From Pyrenula massariospora (taxonomy: Eukaryota > Ascomycota > Eurotiomycetes > Pyrenulales > Pyrenulaceae): a stretch of 23,950 nt of DNA. Every line of letters starts with the position of its first letter. Position 1 is the first letter of the stretch. The notes under the pieces were generated by a model, which was not told the DNA's origin, ran no database searches, and saw only the letters and a program-made list of their open reading frames with translations. The stretch spans positions 1 through 23,950 of the forward strand of contig JAGFMI010000032.1 in assembly GCA_021030905.1 (NCBI GenBank). The letters are read 5' to 3'. A program made the position numbers and the translations under genes. Below are positions 1,460-17,392 of the stretch, one piece after another.

Positions 1460-2179
1460 TTATAAATTTATTTGATCATATAATCAATATAAAAACTTGT
1501 TTAAACTTACACATTGTATTGCTATTGGCATTGAACTATGTAATATTCCACAAATTTCTGAACATTGACCAAAATATATTCCTTCTCTATTTAAATATAC
1601 AGATGATTGATTTAATCTACCTGGATATGCATCACATTTTATTCCTAAACTAGGACAAGCGTAAGAATGTATTACATCTGCTCCTTGTACTACAAATCTT
1701 ACATGAGTTAATTCAGGTAAAATTACTCTGTTATCCACTTCTAACATTCTTAAATAACCTTTATCTAAATCACTTTCTGGTATAATATAAGAATCAAATT
1801 CAATATATTCATTATCTGTATTAGTAAAATCAGGATATTGATAGCTTCAGTATCATTGATGTCCTTCCCCAAGTATAACAATAGCTGGGTCAATAACTTC
1901 ATCCATTAAATAAAGTAATTTAAAGGAAGGAAAAGCAATAAAGATTAAGATTAGTGCAGGAGTAATTGTTCAAATCAATTCTATTAATGTACCATGATTT
2001 ACATATTTATTTGCTATTCTAGCCTTAGTAAAACTTATTATTATTGATCCCATAATCCATGTAACTGCAAATAGTACAATAGCTAAATAAAACATAATGT
2101 TATTATGTAATTCTTCTAATCCTTCCATTTGTGGACTACCGCTATCTTGGAAAAAAGTAGCTCAAGGTTCAGGAGTATC
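1460..2179 (-). CDS. cox2: Cytochrome c oxidase subunit 2, expressed as the C-terminal part of a COX1-COX2 fusion frame
   Basis: About 239 residues (670-908 of the fusion) matching mature COX2. It opens [20 protein letters not shown] and has two N-terminal membrane helices around [16 protein letters not shown] and [19 protein letters not shown]. The aromatic GEGHQWYWSYQYPDF motif follows. The copper-A ligands are visible: the His in DVIHSY and the [12 protein letters not shown] motif (Cys-x3-Cys-x3-His-x2-Met). Electrons from cytochrome c enter complex IV through this copper centre. TGA Trp codons occur at 1484-1486 and 2162-2164. The frame ends KFLYWLYDQINL at the TAA at 1460-1462. There is no start codon or stop separating it from the upstream COX1 frame. 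Post-translational release of mature COX2 is likely but is inference. Confidence 0.95.
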
Positions 2180-2602
2180 ACAACAAATTCTAGAGGCTGA
2201 ATAAGGACTAGATTGTGGCCCAACAACTTGTTGTTGTGAATTTCAAGGTATACCGTTTCTAACTCTCAGTGCAGTTTGATTAAAATATTCTAACATTAAT
2301 TCTCTATGCGATGGTCCTGTAGCCGTAAAATTTGCATTTGCATATTGATGAGGATTATGAATAACTGTATTACCATGCCCATCAGCAAATGTGGCATTTA
2401 AATTACGTCAAACACAATTATGATTAATTTCGAGGTTGTGTATATTTTCACAATTCACACCTATTGTGCTTTCATGTACTGTTCTATAAGAGTGTTCAAA
2501 ACGACTGGCTAAACTTTTATAAGCTATACTAGCTTGCTCATACCATCCATTTGATTTTTCTAAATAACAAGTACTTTTATCTATTATTTTAGAATCAGGA
2601 GC
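2180..2602 (-). other. In-frame linker joining COX1 to COX2
   Basis: 141 codons lie between the usual COX1 end (HAFTSLPLMS) and the mature COX2 start (DTPEPW). The frame is open throughout and contains two TGA codons read as Trp (2408-2410 and 2243-2245). The segment is polar, rich in Asn, Gln, His and Ser, has no obvious membrane helix, and includes a Cys-Cys pair just before the COX2 part. COX2 normally has only a short presequence here. I recognise no domain. It may be removed by proteolysis or may stay as a spacer. Confidence 0.85.
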
Positions 2603-11069
<8,467 letters not shown>

Positions 11070-12450: not shown

Positions 12451-12525
12451 TAGCCAGAAGAGAAAATCGAATTCTCATTCTTAATATATGAGATTAATGT
12501 TCTAACCTATTAAACTATTCTGGCT
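12451..12525 (-). tRNA. trnM: tRNA-Met (CAT), copy 1
   Basis: Acceptor AGCCAGA/TCTGGCT, anticodon stem TTAAT/ATTAA with loop CTCATAT (CAT), T stem GAGAA/TTCTC with loop TTCGATT. It is one of three CAT tRNAs in the window. Which one is the initiator cannot be decided here. Confidence 0.92.
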
Positions 12526-12584
12526 TTTTTTCTTTTTTTTTTTTTTTAATATTTAGAAAACAAATGTAAAATATTAATGTCAAT

Positions 12585-12900
12585 AAAAAGAATTTAATTG
12601 TTAAAAATCATTTATTTGATCCATAAGTTTTGATACATAATTTAAATCCTGTGCTTTTATTTGTTTTTCTATCTCTAAACCTTTATGAAATATATCATTA
12701 ATAGTTTAAGTTTGCGTATTAATTAAACGATCTAAAACACCAATCCTTTTACTAATATTATAAGCTTCTGATTCAGGCATATTATGTGGCGCATCTATAG
12801 ACATATTACCTTGTGAATCTATAATTACGTTGATACCAGTATCAACCGCTATAATATTAAATTGTGTTATAAAATAACTTAGTTGAGGTAGCAAATTATC
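12585..12900 (-). pseudogene. Broken second copy of ORF119
   Basis: Closely similar to codons 12-115 of the intact ORF at 14292-14651. It lacks the first 11 codons and has an in-frame TAA at 12706-12708 where the intact copy has CAA (Gln), plus a second stop near the end. The 5' end is cut off at a junction with cox3-like sequence at about 12901. It is therefore a decayed duplicate, not an expressed gene. Confidence 0.85.
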
Positions 12901-12955
12901 TAAAGGCCAAGATTATAGAGAAACTTAATGAAAAAAAAAATTAAAATAAATTAGG
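12901..12955 (-). pseudogene. Fragment of the cox3 5' coding region
   Basis: The sequence from AAAGGCCAAG at 12904 onward matches the region of cox3 encoding [10 protein letters not shown] (16625-16665) with a few changes, then fades. It is directly joined to broken ORF119, so the cox3 body, its intron and the ORF119 start have been deleted between them. Confidence 0.75.
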
Positions 12956-12975: not shown

Positions 12976-13311
12976 TTAAAATCTACATTTACAAGGATGA
13001 CTACAAACATGACAATTTTTTCCTGGGATAACTCAGGTTTCTCTGCCATGTCTTCAGCAATTTGGACATCTTATGCCCGACATAGGTGACATTTCGTCAT
13101 TACTTGAATTGTCATTTTCGGGTCCAAATGTCTCACCAAACACCTCTGTACTTGAAAAAATTCCATTCACTAATCAAATAAAAATAAACCCTGCTAAAGT
13201 TTTTAGTATTGGATATTTGTTCAAATAATATTGAATTGTGTAAAAATATAAAGATAAATACATACCCGTAGTAGCTAGGCCATTACCTATAAATTTTACC
13301 ACTTGTATCAT
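12976..13311 (-). CDS. ORF111: chimeric protein with ATP9-like N-terminus, membrane segment and C-terminal zinc-ribbon-like motif
   Basis: 111 residues from ATG 13309-13311 to TAA 12976-12978. All three Trp codons (46, 86 and 93) are TGA, so the frame is hidden under the standard code. Residues 1-16 are ATP9-like (MIQVVKFIGNGLATTG versus [16 protein letters not shown]). Residues 17-55 are hydrophobic with two possible helices. An acidic, Ser/Asn-rich stretch follows (56-79). The tail carries Cys82-x2-Cys85 and Cys100-x2-Cys103, plus His101, His105, Cys107 and Cys109, suggesting metal binding. It occupies the position of atp9 in the second copy of the duplicated block and has an almost identical atp9 5' leader. 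The non-ATP9 part is more GC-rich than its surroundings, suggesting foreign origin. Function unknown; expression unproven. Confidence 0.75.
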
Positions 13312-13380
13312 AAAAATGATTCTTTAATGCGTATTTTATAATACACTATTAAGGGAAATATTTTTCAAAATCAAAAAAAA
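13312..13380 (-). repeat. Second copy of the atp9 5' leader
   Basis: The 69 nt upstream of ORF111 match the leader of true atp9 (17102-17170) with only a one-base insertion next to the start codon. This region probably carries translation or processing signals. It is far better conserved than the neighbouring relics. Confidence 0.92.
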
Positions 13381-13482: not shown

Positions 13483-13487
13483 AAAAA

Positions 13488-13650
13488 AAGTTATCATTAA
13501 AATAAATAATCCCGTAGCTTTAGCGAATGCAATACCGAGTATAGCATAGGCAAATAATTGTGTTCTTAATAAAGGATTTCTTGATACACCTATTATTAAT
13601 GCGCCAAAAACTACACCTATACCTACTCCAGCCCCAAGGTATTGTTCTTA
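13488..13650 (-). pseudogene. ATP9 relic (C-terminal two thirds), essential Glu changed to Lys
   Basis: The frame encodes [20 protein letters not shown] and then [16 protein letters not shown], clearly derived from atp9, but it lacks the first 20 codons and a start. The proton-carrying Glu of the FAEATG motif is Lys (GAA to AAA, near 13513). It cannot function as a c-ring subunit. It sits between tRNA-like sequences just upstream of the duplicated leader. Confidence 0.85.
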
Positions 13651-13684
13651 CTCCAGCCCAGTGAAATAAACCTAACCTAATCTA

Positions 13685-13754
13685 ACCCAGTGTAAGAATC
13701 GCACTTACATAAACCAATTTGTAAATGGACGCATTACTATTAAGCTAACCGGGT
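13685..13754 (-). tRNA. tRNA-like gene, copy 2 (apparent anticodon ACA); possibly non-functional
   Basis: Acceptor ACCCGGT/ACTGGGT pairs (one G-T), and the T stem GTAAG/CTTAC is perfect with loop TGCGATT. The D stem is imperfect and the anticodon stem has two T-T mismatches. The loop TTACAAA would give ACA, whereas the other copy (17323-17392) reads GCA. Probably a decaying duplicate of a Cys-like tRNA. Confidence 0.5.
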
Positions 13755-13812: not shown

Positions 13813-13885
13813 TCGGGTTATTATGATTCGAACATAACTCATCCTCAACCCAAATGAGGCGCCTTACCAACCTGGCTCTAACCCG
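13813..13885 (-). tRNA. trnP: tRNA-Pro (TGG)
   Basis: Perfect acceptor CGGGTTA/TAACCCG, D stem GCC/GGC, perfect anticodon stem CCTCA/TGAGG with loop TTTGGGT (TGG), T stem TTATG/CATAA with loop TTCGAAT. It overlaps the 3' end of the chimeric cox3-atp9 frame. Confidence 0.95.
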
Positions 13886-14151
13886 TCATATATACCATAA
13901 AACCTGTAATTGTATAAACTACATAAAAACAAAAAAGCCATTAAAGTAAAAATACCTATAGCTTCAGCAAAAACAAACCTCAAATAGCATAATAATAAAA
14001 ATATTAAAGTAGCAATATGTAAAGAAAAAAGACTACACCTTTTAAATGTTAATACTGCACTAAAAGTTATATTAAATAAAAACATAAAGGCTAAGGAGAT
14101 GTAGGGGACTAAATAAAAAGGATGAAATTTATTGAAATGCTGAAGCTTCAA
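13864..14151 (-). pseudogene. Chimeric cox3-atp9 reading frame (95 codons)
   Basis: An open frame whose first half follows the COX3 start (FHPFYLV and TFSAVLTF versus FHPFHLV and [10 protein letters not shown] of true COX3) and whose second half follows the ATP9 C-terminus (FVFAEAIGIFTLMAFLFL versus [19 protein letters not shown]). The ATP9 glutamate is retained. The frame runs into tRNA-Pro (its last codons overlap the acceptor), so a separate mature protein is doubtful. Most likely a recombination product with a fortuitously open frame; a two-helix peptide could be made. Confidence 0.65.
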
Positions 14152-14291
14152 GTTAAATTTATTTATTTATTATGATTTTAAGGGACATATCAAGATATTT
14201 ATAGATATATCTCATTTTAAACAATTTTATTAATCTTATACATTATTATTTATTTTTTTTTAAGTAAAATTTTGAAAACAAATGTAAGATA

Positions 14292-14651
14292 TTAATGTTT
14301 ATAAGAAGAATTTAATTGTTTAAAATGATTTATTTGATTCGTAAATTTTGATACATAATTAGGATCCTGTGCTTTTATTTGTTTTTCTATATCTAAACCT
14401 CTATGAAATATATCATTAATACTTTGAGTTTGCGTATTGATTAAACGATCTAAAACACCAATCCTTTTACTGATATTATAGGCTTCTGATTCAGGCATAT
14501 TATGTGGCGCATCTATAGACATATTACCTTGTGAGTCTGTAATTACGTTAATACCAGTATCAAGCACTGTATTATTAAATTGTGTTATAAAGTTACTTAG
14601 TTGAGGTAGCAAATTATCTACCTGGGTTATTAAATTAAATATTTCTTCCAT
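14292..14651 (-). CDS. ORF119, hypothetical protein downstream of cox3
   Basis: 119 residues, starting MEEIFNLITQ, ATG at 14649-14651. No membrane segment, no Trp, no known motif. It is polar with likely amphipathic helices: NLLPQLSNFITQF near the start, RIGVLDRLINTQTQSINDIF in the middle and KFTNQINHFKQLN at the end. It starts 24 nt after the cox3 stop, so it is probably co-transcribed with cox3. A damaged copy at 12585-12900 diverges but keeps most residues. Intact length in one copy suggests selection. I do not recognise the family; it may match an uncharacterised ORF seen in other fungal mitochondria. Confidence 0.7.
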   Translation of the reverse strand: MEEIFNLITQVDNLLPQLSNFITQFNNTVLDTGINVITDSQGNMSIDAPHNMPESEAYNISKRIGVLDRLINTQTQSINDIFHRGLDIEKQIKAQDPNYVSKFTNQINHFKQLNSSYKH

Positions 14652-14675: not shown

Positions 14676-16695
14676 TTAACATCCTCAATAATATACAGAT
14701 ATATACAAGAATAATCAAACTACATCTACAAAATGTCAATATAAAATACCGGATTCCAAACCTAAATGGTGATTTTCAGTTAAATGGTAGGTCAACATTC
14801 TTAATAGCCCTACAGCTAAAAAAGCTGTACCTATTATAACATGTAATCCATGGACAAATTGTTATCAAAAAAGCTCTTTATCTTTTTTTCCATCTCTTAT
14901 CAAGATGGTTCAGACTATGTCTTCAGCATATAATTGCCGCAAGGTGTTCGTGGTAGAATTATTGTAAATAAAGTACTCATCTACTAGTCGTTGAGGCTTC
15001 TTGTATCCCCCCCAATATTGGTTAATTTATTCAATACAAACTTCGCCGCACATTGTCCTTATTATTTTATGTAATAATGAAGGAGTTTCATGCTATTTAC
15101 CTCGTTTTCTACCTAAACTATTATCTATTTCTATTCATTCTATTTTTAATATCTTTTATATTTTCCAATTGTTTGTGATTTAAATTTTGATTTTCTGAAA
15201 CAATCTTGGTTACTGTTCTAAAATCCTCATAATCTAATCTTTTTTTTCCATGTAAACTATATTTGTAAAAAAAATGTACAATTTTATCAAAAATGTCACT
15301 AAATTTATATACAACAAAAGTAGATTGAGTAGGTCTAGTTTTTACTGTTTCTACCAATCCACAATTCAAATAAATTGCTATTTTTTCAAGTAAGTTTATA
15401 TCTCTTATATCCTGAGATATTGAAAAATAAGGTTTTGCTTTGTTAGGTTGGTTTTTACTTATTTTTATATAAAAACAACCTTCTGCATCAGTAAAACCTG
15501 CAATTCAATAAGGATTAAAATTACCATCACAATACACTTTATTTCGTGTTATTGGTACTATACCTGGAAAAATGTTAAATAATGATTCAGATAATCCTTT
15601 GTTCATTGAAGCTCTAATAGATAAAATTTCATTTAATCCCTTTTCGTTTTTATCTTGTTTATCATAAATAATATTAACAGCTAAACAAAAAAGCCTAAAA
15701 TCTTCTTTTTTTTGAGTGAGTAAACTATATTTGTTGAAATGAGGTATAATTTTTTCTTTAATGCTTTTTATAGATTGTACTGAATATATTGCATTTTTTC
15801 TACCATTTCTTATTCTACTGATAATAGTACCTACACCAAAAAAATCTTGGATATTTATTAATAAATCTTTATCTTTTTCATTCAATTCTATTGTGAATAT
15901 AGGACTTATACGTAGAGATTTAAATCTGCTGTTATCTTTTGCAATTCTTATAAAAAAACTAGCTTCTCCGTCACAAAAACCTGTAACTCAATTAGGATTT
16001 AATTTAAAATTTGTTACAATTGAATAGAATCTATTTAATTGTTTTAAAGTAGGGGCTAGAAATAACCCGGTACCAAAATAAAAACAAGAAGCATAAGTGC
16101 TGTCTGATAAAGTATACGAAGATACTGTGTATTCAATTGCTTGTAATCCTGTGAATATAATAGCTAATATTATTGTATATGTTAAACCATATAATGCTCC
16201 ACTTCTGTTACCTTGTATTAATGAATGATGAGCATATGTTACAGTTACACCAGAAGATAATAATATAACTGTATTTAACAATGGCAACTCAAATGGATTT
16301 ATAGAATCTATACCCAATGGAGGTCATTTAGCCCCCAGCTCCGTATTAGGAGACAAAGCACTGTGAAAAAATGACCAAAATATTGCTAAAAAAAAAAATA
16401 TTTCAGAAACTATAAATAATCCTATTCCTAAATTTAAACCTTTTTGTACTGCTAAAGTATGATTACCTAAATATGTTGCTTCTGATATCACATCTTTAAA
16501 TCAGAATGACATACAAAATATTACACTAATTAAAGCTGTATATAGGTAAAAATATGATGATATAAAACCATGAAATGTTAATACTGCACTAAAAGTTAGA
16601 TTTAATAATGATATACTACTATATAAAGGCCAAGGAGATGGAGAAACTAAATGAAAAGGATGAAATTGAAATAAACTCCTAGTTAAATTTGTCAT
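14676..16695 (-). CDS. cox3: Cytochrome c oxidase subunit 3, two exons
   Basis: Exon 1 16695-16065 (631 nt) and exon 2 14854-14676 (179 nt) make a 269-residue protein, the usual length. Start [24 protein letters not shown]. Conserved blocks include [44 protein letters not shown] and, across the junction, [14 protein letters not shown]. It ends [22 protein letters not shown]3 is the third core subunit of complex IV. The splice joins GGG T to TC CAT, restoring the GFHG motif. TGA Trp codons occur, for example in [17 protein letters not shown] near 16501. Confidence 0.97.
14855..16064 (-). other. Group I intron of cox3
   Basis: 1210 nt, phase 1. Exon end GGGT pairs with guide GCCC (U-G at the cut), and the intron ends in G at 14855. 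A core-like string GAAGACATAGTCTGAACC lies near 14905-14925. Most of it is filled by a LAGLIDADG ORF. Confidence 0.85.
15121..16064 (-). CDS. LAGLIDADG homing endonuclease/maturase ORF of the cox3 intron, in frame with exon 1
   Basis: About 314 codons continuing from the COX3 FGTG codons and stopping at 15121-15123. Two motifs, GFCDGEASF near 15980 and GFTDAEGCF near 15490, both keep the acidic residue. Two internal TGA codons are Trp, each just before a motif (WVTGF, WIAGF). It appears intact. Likely intron homing and/or maturase role. Confidence 0.88.
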
Positions 16696-16876: not shown

Positions 16877-17170
<294 letters not shown>

Positions 17171-17214: not shown

Positions 17215-17325
17215 TTTGTAGCTTCAGCGTATGCAAAACTTAGTTTTGCATAATTGTGCTATTAATAAAGGATTTCTTTATACACCTTTAATGAAAAAAA
17301 ATCTACACCTGTATATACTGTAGCC
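17215..17325 (-). pseudogene. Decayed atp9 fragment upstream of atp9
   Basis: Plus-strand words TAGCTTCAGCG, GCAAAAC, AATTGTGCT and GGATTTCTT..ATACACCT match atp9 codons 25-63, but there are indels, so no frame survives. The same arrangement (relic next to the tRNA-like gene and before the leader) recurs at 13488-13650. Confidence 0.75.
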
Positions 17326-17392
17326 CAGTGTAAGAATTGCACTTACATAAACCAACTTGCAAATGGACGCATTACTGTTATGCTAACCGGGT
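17323..17392 (-). tRNA. tRNA-like gene, copy 1 (anticodon GCA, Cys-like)
   Basis: The D stem GCAT/ATGC and T stem GTAAG/CTTAC are perfect. The acceptor ACCCGGT/ACTGGGC has one A-C mismatch at the end. The anticodon loop TTGCAAG gives GCA but its stem has two T-T mismatches. A normal tRNA-Cys(GCA) exists at 1335-1405, so this may be a second or decaying Cys tRNA. Identity is uncertain. Confidence 0.55.

Follow-up and report, generated by a model that had tools for sequence, protein, structure and literature searches.

A mitochondrial hybrid gene of Pyrenula massariospora with a tail matching a spliced nuclear gene suggests inward movement of nuclear sequence

A small hybrid gene, ORF111, lies in the mitochondrial DNA (mtDNA) of the fungus Pyrenula massariospora, and its tail matches a nuclear gene of this fungus in spliced form. 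The match suggests that nuclear sequence has moved inward, against the usual direction; to our knowledge, gene flow between mitochondrion and nucleus has nearly always been described outward. Judged from its sequence, ORF111 is apparently a functional gene, and its product is probably a selected, membrane-anchored, zinc-ribbon-like protein. In the most far-reaching reading, to which we assign a probability of about 0.5, part of a nuclear gene came in via spliced RNA, obtained an atp9 leader and a membrane segment, was recoded from TGG to TGA and was retained by selection to become a new gene of the mitochondrion, with the original still present in the nucleus.

ORF111 within a duplicated atp9 locus

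The window (the whole stretch of DNA analysed, 23,950 nt) is one entire contig (C25) of a 37.8-Mb, 33-contig assembly. It is fungal mtDNA: cox1 and cox2 in one frame and atp9 are recognized by Pfam, several frames are of intron type, ARAGORN finds 13 tRNAs, and cox3, atp6, nad1, nad4L, and nad5 can be picked out by eye in the list of open reading frames, with nad4L and nad5 overlapping by one base. The last exon of cox1 and cox2 form one continuous frame (1460-3040). According to the accessible part of PMC5626475, a single cox1/cox2 frame occurs in Pleosporales, which lack a mitochondrial atp9; here, unlike in Pleosporales, atp9 is mitochondrially encoded, and a search with the mitochondrial protein found no nuclear atp9 at E ≤ 0.001. 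ORF111 lies at 12976-13311 on the minus strand and is translated with code 4 into 111 aa. Its parts, and those of the surrounding locus, are as follows.

13312..13380, minus strand: captured copy of the atp9 5′ leader, 1 difference in 69 nt from the true leader at 17102-17169
13264..13311, minus strand: ORF111 codons 1-16, N-terminus from ATP9, with 6 differences in 48 nt from the same codons of atp9
13096..13263, minus strand: ORF111 codons 17-72, hydrophobic segment (by hydropathy) and acidic linker, without a match in the organism's own genome
12991..13095, minus strand: ORF111 codons 73-107, zinc-ribbon-like tail (Cx2C-x14-Cx2C), homologous to the spliced nuclear gene
12976..12990, minus strand: ORF111 codons 108-111 (KCRF) with the stop codon, beyond the end of the nuclear gene, which stops after codon 107
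12897..12950, minus strand: relic of the cox3 start directly 3′ of ORF111, 80% identical to 16620-16675
12525..12902, minus strand: decayed copy of orf119, 90% identical to 14243-14620, with two internal TAA stops under code 4
13484..13635, minus strand: relic of atp9 codons 19-69, 5′ of ORF111, 88% identical to 16896-17047
13684..13754, minus strand: tRNA-like gene (Rfam RF00005), duplicate of 17322-17392, 90% identical over 79 nt
16877..17101, minus strand: intact atp9, source of the leader (Pfam PF00137, E 2.5e-13)
17102..17169, minus strand: true atp9 leader, compared with that of ORF111
14292..14651, minus strand: intact orf119 of the duplicated block, from the list of open reading frames

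Self-comparison of the window places ORF111 inside a recombined duplication of a tRNA-atp9-cox3-orf119 block. The intact block runs from 17394 to 14292 on the minus strand and consists of a tRNA-like gene, an atp9 relic, the leader, atp9, cox3 with an intron, and orf119. In the copy, the minus-strand order is the tRNA-like gene (13754-13684), the remainder of atp9 (13635-13484), the leader with codons 1-16 (13383-13264), about 310 nt of unique sequence, the cox3-start relic (12950-12897), and the decayed orf119 (12902-12525). From the order of the two blocks, the part peculiar to ORF111 takes the place where atp9 would continue and cox3 would begin; the remainder of atp9 does not follow the insert, since the sequence downstream is the cox3-start relic and the atp9 relic lies upstream.

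The architecture that the first-pass annotation had read from the letters (a 111-codon frame with an ATP9-like start of 16 residues, a hydrophobic segment, and an acidic linker) was found as described. All three of its Trp codons are TGA, again as annotated. The leader does differ from that of atp9 by a single base in 69 nt, the sole difference being a one-base indel (68/69 nt the same), and it is indeed better kept than its neighbours: differences amount to 37/378 in orf119, 18/152 in atp9 codons 19-69, and 8/79 in the tRNA-like gene, and the leader is less diverged than each of these three pieces and codons 1-16 (Fisher P 0.009 to 0.037, uncorrected). Its RNA folds only modestly in both copies (z −1.9 and −2.0). 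Within codons 1-16 the six base changes replace five residues, the number annotated, so the N-terminus is not visibly under constraint.

The hydrophobic stretch spans about residues 30-59, with its highest-scoring 19-mer at 35-53 (Kyte-Doolittle 1.75). The two CxxC knuckles of a zinc-ribbon protein are present at C82/C85 and C100/C103, in the annotated spacing, with C107 and C109 as the extra cysteines. The chance of a 95-codon open frame at the local base composition, measured on a stretch that includes the ORF111 frame itself, is about 0.0012.

Several other features of the duplicated locus were observed. The intergenic frame orf119, whose intact and decayed copies (14292-14651 and 12525-12902) are 90% identical in DNA, has no significant family match, no further copy in the assembly at E ≤ 1, and no confirmed relatives in IMG/VR. 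The duplicated tRNA-like genes at 13684-13754 and 17322-17392 were detected by Rfam and missed by ARAGORN; they differ within the apparent anticodon loop, as placed by eye (TTTACAA vs. TTTGCAA). A 73-aa frame at 13864-14085 consists, by eye, of a relic of the cox3 start joined to a relic of the atp9 end, and looks like another recombination product of the same block.

The tail corresponds to a spliced nuclear sequence

A protein search of nuclear sequence, proposed in the first-pass annotation and run here on the organism's own assembly, finds a homologue of the tail: with ORF111 as query, the one match outside the window is at C9:633658-633759, on a 972-kb contig (residues 76-109, 82% identity, E 4.5e-16). 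The rest of the protein beyond the ATP9 start had been annotated as an unrelated protein of unknown origin; this no longer holds for residues 73-107, which have a nuclear homologue in the same organism, and stands for residues 17-72, where the searches gave no relative.

As read from DNA and not from RNA, the nuclear gene has two exons separated by a 69-nt GT..AG intron: the first is short and ends in GAAATGTCTCCT, and the second extends from ATGTCTGG to TGTTAA; joined, they encode a protein of 52 residues. Near its end the intron has a CTGAC motif that resembles a branch site. The protein begins MEDHVKPTKGVQLPPNPE, which on inspection is unlike a targeting presequence. The neighbouring frames (chaperonin-like and phospholipase-like) have an ordinary nuclear look by eye.

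When the spliced nuclear protein is used as query, its match to mtDNA (residues 15-52, 84%, 72.2 bits, E 1.1e-18) scores above its matches to the single nuclear exons (68.6 and 38.6 bits). Immediately before the junction, the mitochondrial frame agrees with the end of exon 1 at 11/12 and 13/18 nt, as against 3/12 and 4/18 nt for the end of the intron; 11/12 was reached in none of 200,000 random draws and 13/18 has P 1.5e-5. The spliceosomal intron, itself read from sequence, is thus exactly missing at the junction, and the mitochondrial tail corresponds to the spliced sequence. Homology to exon 1 is not visible further than these last 12-18 nt. At the other end, where the nuclear gene stops, mtDNA has a Lys codon and then three further codons.

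The nuclear gene was also considered as a NUMT, an ordinary stretch of mtDNA in the nucleus, and this was rejected: when 10 kb of C9 around the gene were compared with the window by blastn, only one of 16 rows had E < 0.5 (L003:4962-5057), and that row is the exon itself. Neither the upstream nor the downstream nuclear flank aligns with the mitochondrial flanks.

Selection on the tail and searches for relatives

Of the 35 codons shared by the mitochondrial and nuclear sequences, 17 show synonymous differences, 3 encode another residue, and the other 15 agree fully; this count omits the position of the nuclear stop, with which it becomes 36 codons and 4 replacements. Synonymous sites are saturated (pS 0.89) and dN is 0.08. 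The third positions differ at 20 codons, 11 times as nuclear G/C to mitochondrial A/T and 3 times in reverse, and a Trp common to both proteins is encoded by TGG in the nucleus but by TGA in mtDNA, as expected from selection for the protein under the mitochondrial code. The codon usage score of the tail is 11.1, compared with 17.3 ± 5.8 for sequences drawn from mitochondrial usage and −22.2 ± 8.3 for those drawn from nuclear usage; because the codons are mitochondrial-like and the third positions have shifted to A/T, the mitochondrial branch must have taken many changes. A nuclear residue in codon usage is not clear in the tail (P 0.14) and is weak in residues 17-72 (P 0.017), and third-position G+C, taken by itself, does not set the tail apart as foreign (P 0.30; residues 17-72, P 0.066).

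Neutral simulation with 10 substitutions on the mitochondrial branch gives three or fewer replaced codons with P 0.0055-0.0075, and with 14 or more substitutions with P ≤ 0.0003. Since simulated neutral decay fails to produce 17 synonymous changes against 3 replacements, the tail has very probably been kept by purifying selection inside the mitochondrion, a signal that covers residues 73-107 and says nothing on residues 17-72; the counts are small (35 codons, one mitochondrial genome) and the contrast is strong. The test presumes that the mitochondrial copy began with nuclear-like codons; were the mitochondrial copy the older one, the changes would fall on the nuclear branch and the test would speak for the nuclear gene. 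From the selection signal we infer that ORF111 is expressed. Both the structure of the locus and this selection on the tail support the earlier proposal that a captured atp9 leader precedes a new gene.

Residues 17-72 have no match in the organism's own assembly at E ≤ 10. Their best score against all frames of the window is 44 (shuffled mean 43.3, sd 5.1, max 56) and against the 10 kb around the nuclear gene 42 (shuffled mean 34.0, sd 4.0, max 45), and neither comparison yields a relative. Family libraries and PDB sequences gave no match to ORF111 above cut-off, and no known zinc-ribbon family; Pfam finds no LAGLIDADG, GIY-YIG, or NUMOD domain in it. The best insignificant matches are Aph-1, which is not a zinc ribbon (E 0.015, 15.1 bits with a cut-off of 25.6), Glyco_hydro_95 (E 0.051), and DUF7575 (E 0.23) in Pfam, RNA polymerase subunit P (E 0.09) in NCBIfam, and eL37 (E 0.14) and OTOP3 (E 0.37) in PDB. 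Beyond these, no homologue was confirmed in IMG/VR, which is almost without eukaryotes; a plasmid collection gave five records at E 2 to 8 only and phages none at E ≤ 1, both with almost no eukaryotes covered. The single match in GTDB contigs (12 residues in a Clostridia MAG, with an E of 2e-5 that is relative to candidate stretches only) was taken as chance. The missing external homologues say little, because these collections hold almost no eukaryotes.

A second mitochondrial contig (C26, comprising L009 and L010; 15175 bp) carries two inverted copies each of a nad4-like frame and of a 192-aa frame that by eye is nad6. The nad4-like frame at L009:2269-4458 (minus strand) is a single frame of 729 aa with Pfam PF00361, named nad4 by eye, and presumably runs about 240 aa beyond the usual end of nad4. 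Its extension has the same layout as ORF111, with a hydrophobic stretch followed by a long hydrophilic linker and, at the end, a zinc-ribbon-like tail (CPIC-x16-CYKC). The last 173 aa have no significant relative in Pfam or PDB, and their best place in the assembly outside C26 has E 0.034. When the extension was compared with ORF111 as a candidate relative, no significant kinship emerged (P 0.28 for residues 17-111, 0.35 for 17-72, 0.21 for the tail, and 0.11 for the nuclear protein).

Chimeric ORFs associated with cytoplasmic male sterility (CMS) in plants join an atp-derived leader and N-terminus to a foreign membrane frame, and these frames are usually shuffled mitochondrial sequence, unlike ORF111, whose tail is common to a spliced nuclear gene. 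The likeness to such ORFs drawn in the first-pass annotation holds for the construction only (an atp leader with a foreign frame), and fungal ORFs behind duplicated atp9 starts are nearer, as far as the accessible parts of two reports go (PMC3434094; PMC4162613). In Phialocephala subalpina, the 123-aa ORF_01 combines 14 bp of the atp9 ORF with a 488-bp insertion, and 124 bp upstream are duplicated; it occurs in 3 of 8 species, is broken in one, and is judged non-coding by its authors (PMC3434094, accessible part). ORF111 resembles it in size and in starting within a duplicated atp9 frame (42/48 nt over codons 1-16) with upstream sequence included (68/69 nt); unlike ORF_01, which has 14 bp of atp9 and for which the accessible text mentions no nuclear relative (PMC3434094), ORF111 shows a selection signal, and its tail has a homologue in the nucleus. 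ORF 0044 of Sclerotinia borealis likewise joins a copy of atp9, in frame, to a C-terminal part unrelated to it; unlike ORF111, it keeps a full-size atp9 and has a 213-aa tail, with no nuclear homologue mentioned in the accessible text (PMC4162613). A mitochondrial N-acetyltransferase of P. subalpina shares with the ORF111 tail the property of being mitochondrially encoded with relatives in nuclear genomes, and differs in its length (579 aa) and family (PMC3434094, accessible part). ORFs behind duplicated atp9 starts are thus already known from Phialocephala; the nuclear-like tail, the spliced correspondence, and the selection signal are new in ORF111. A literature search covering few subscription journals found no fungal mitochondrial gene derived from nuclear mRNA.

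Origin and direction of transfer

We think it rather probable that sequence from spliced nuclear RNA entered the mtDNA, directly or nearly so; RNA-mediated movement from nucleus to mitochondrion fits because the intron is missing at its exact site. Spliced nuclear RNA would have entered mtDNA as cDNA, and the cDNA-derived sequence would have come to lie behind the duplicated atp9 start, whose leader would supply expression signals. The hydrophobic segment (best 19-mer 35-53) might anchor the product in the inner membrane. The N-terminus of ATP9 faces the intermembrane space, which, with a single membrane span, would place the tail in the matrix; the predicted metal site of this tail could then be a zinc ribbon exposed, probably, to the matrix, and the ORF111 product might be a locally made, anchored version of a small nuclear-encoded protein.

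Against this reading, no poly-A trace was seen by eye, and the mitochondrial contigs C25 and C26 (part of C26 reads N) gave no reverse-transcriptase match. In the nucleus at least 24 places with reverse-transcriptase matches were scored, 23 of these 24 with internal stops, among which TAA is commoner overall than the other stops. Repeat-induced point mutation is known in filamentous ascomycetes, and the TAA-rich stops are suggestive of it in this one.

Movement in the opposite direction, which we consider unlikely, would make ORF111 the older, full-length gene, whose hydrophilic tail was copied to the nucleus and there acquired an intron together with a new start, a piecewise transfer of the kind known for the cox1 3′ end in protists and rpl2 in plants. 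It would require the gain of a spliceosomal intron inside the shared stretch, and intron gain is rare; the mitochondrial gene, moreover, starts with captured atp9 codons and is therefore young in its present form, and the nuclear N-terminus does not resemble a presequence. Outward movement would accord with the mitochondrial gene being longer than the nuclear one and largely mitochondrial-like in its codons, and with nad4 of the same organism also ending CPxC..CxxC, so that such tails may be at home in this mitochondrion. Hydrophilic ends are pieces known to move (PMC5664110, accessible part), whereas the standard fungal mitochondrial gene set has no such gene (PMC5626475, accessible part). 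The inward direction is drawn from this last absence together with the intron argument, and not from an outgroup sequence.

It is quite unlikely that the tail came from an already intronless nuclear copy, or horizontally from the mtDNA or a plasmid of another fungus, rather than directly from this mRNA. The saturated synonymous sites imply an old transfer, and this genome offers no source for residues 17-72, both of which would suit such an origin; against it, the nucleus has no second good homologue (the search at E ≤ 10 leaves just two weak matches, on C28 with E 0.046 and on C30 with E 7.0), and no polymerase-like frame was seen by eye beside ORF111 in the list of open reading frames.

A transcribed, non-functional remnant, with a reading frame open by chance after a duplicated atp9 start, is very unlikely. 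ORF111 does sit among decaying copies of atp9, cox3, and orf119, and its analogue ORF_01, found in 3/8 species and broken in one, is partly transcribed (PMC3434094, accessible part); yet the low open-frame probability (~0.0012) and the 17 synonymous against 3 replacement codons at saturated synonymous sites, with which neutral simulation disagrees, argue otherwise. A selfish or incompatibility element of the plant CMS kind, in which a membrane protein expressed from the atp9 leader disturbs respiration, would share the construction of a captured atp leader and a foreign hydrophobic frame, but is exceedingly improbable given a conserved tail common to ORF111 and a nuclear gene of the host.

If entry from spliced nuclear RNA is the true course, ORF111 would represent a rare inward transfer that retains a trace of its RNA intermediate and of its recoding (the shared Trp, TGG in the nucleus and TGA in mtDNA), and would show that a captured atp9 leader can render foreign sequence expressible. 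ORF111 and its nuclear homologue offer a concrete gene pair, one in each compartment, for functional tests.
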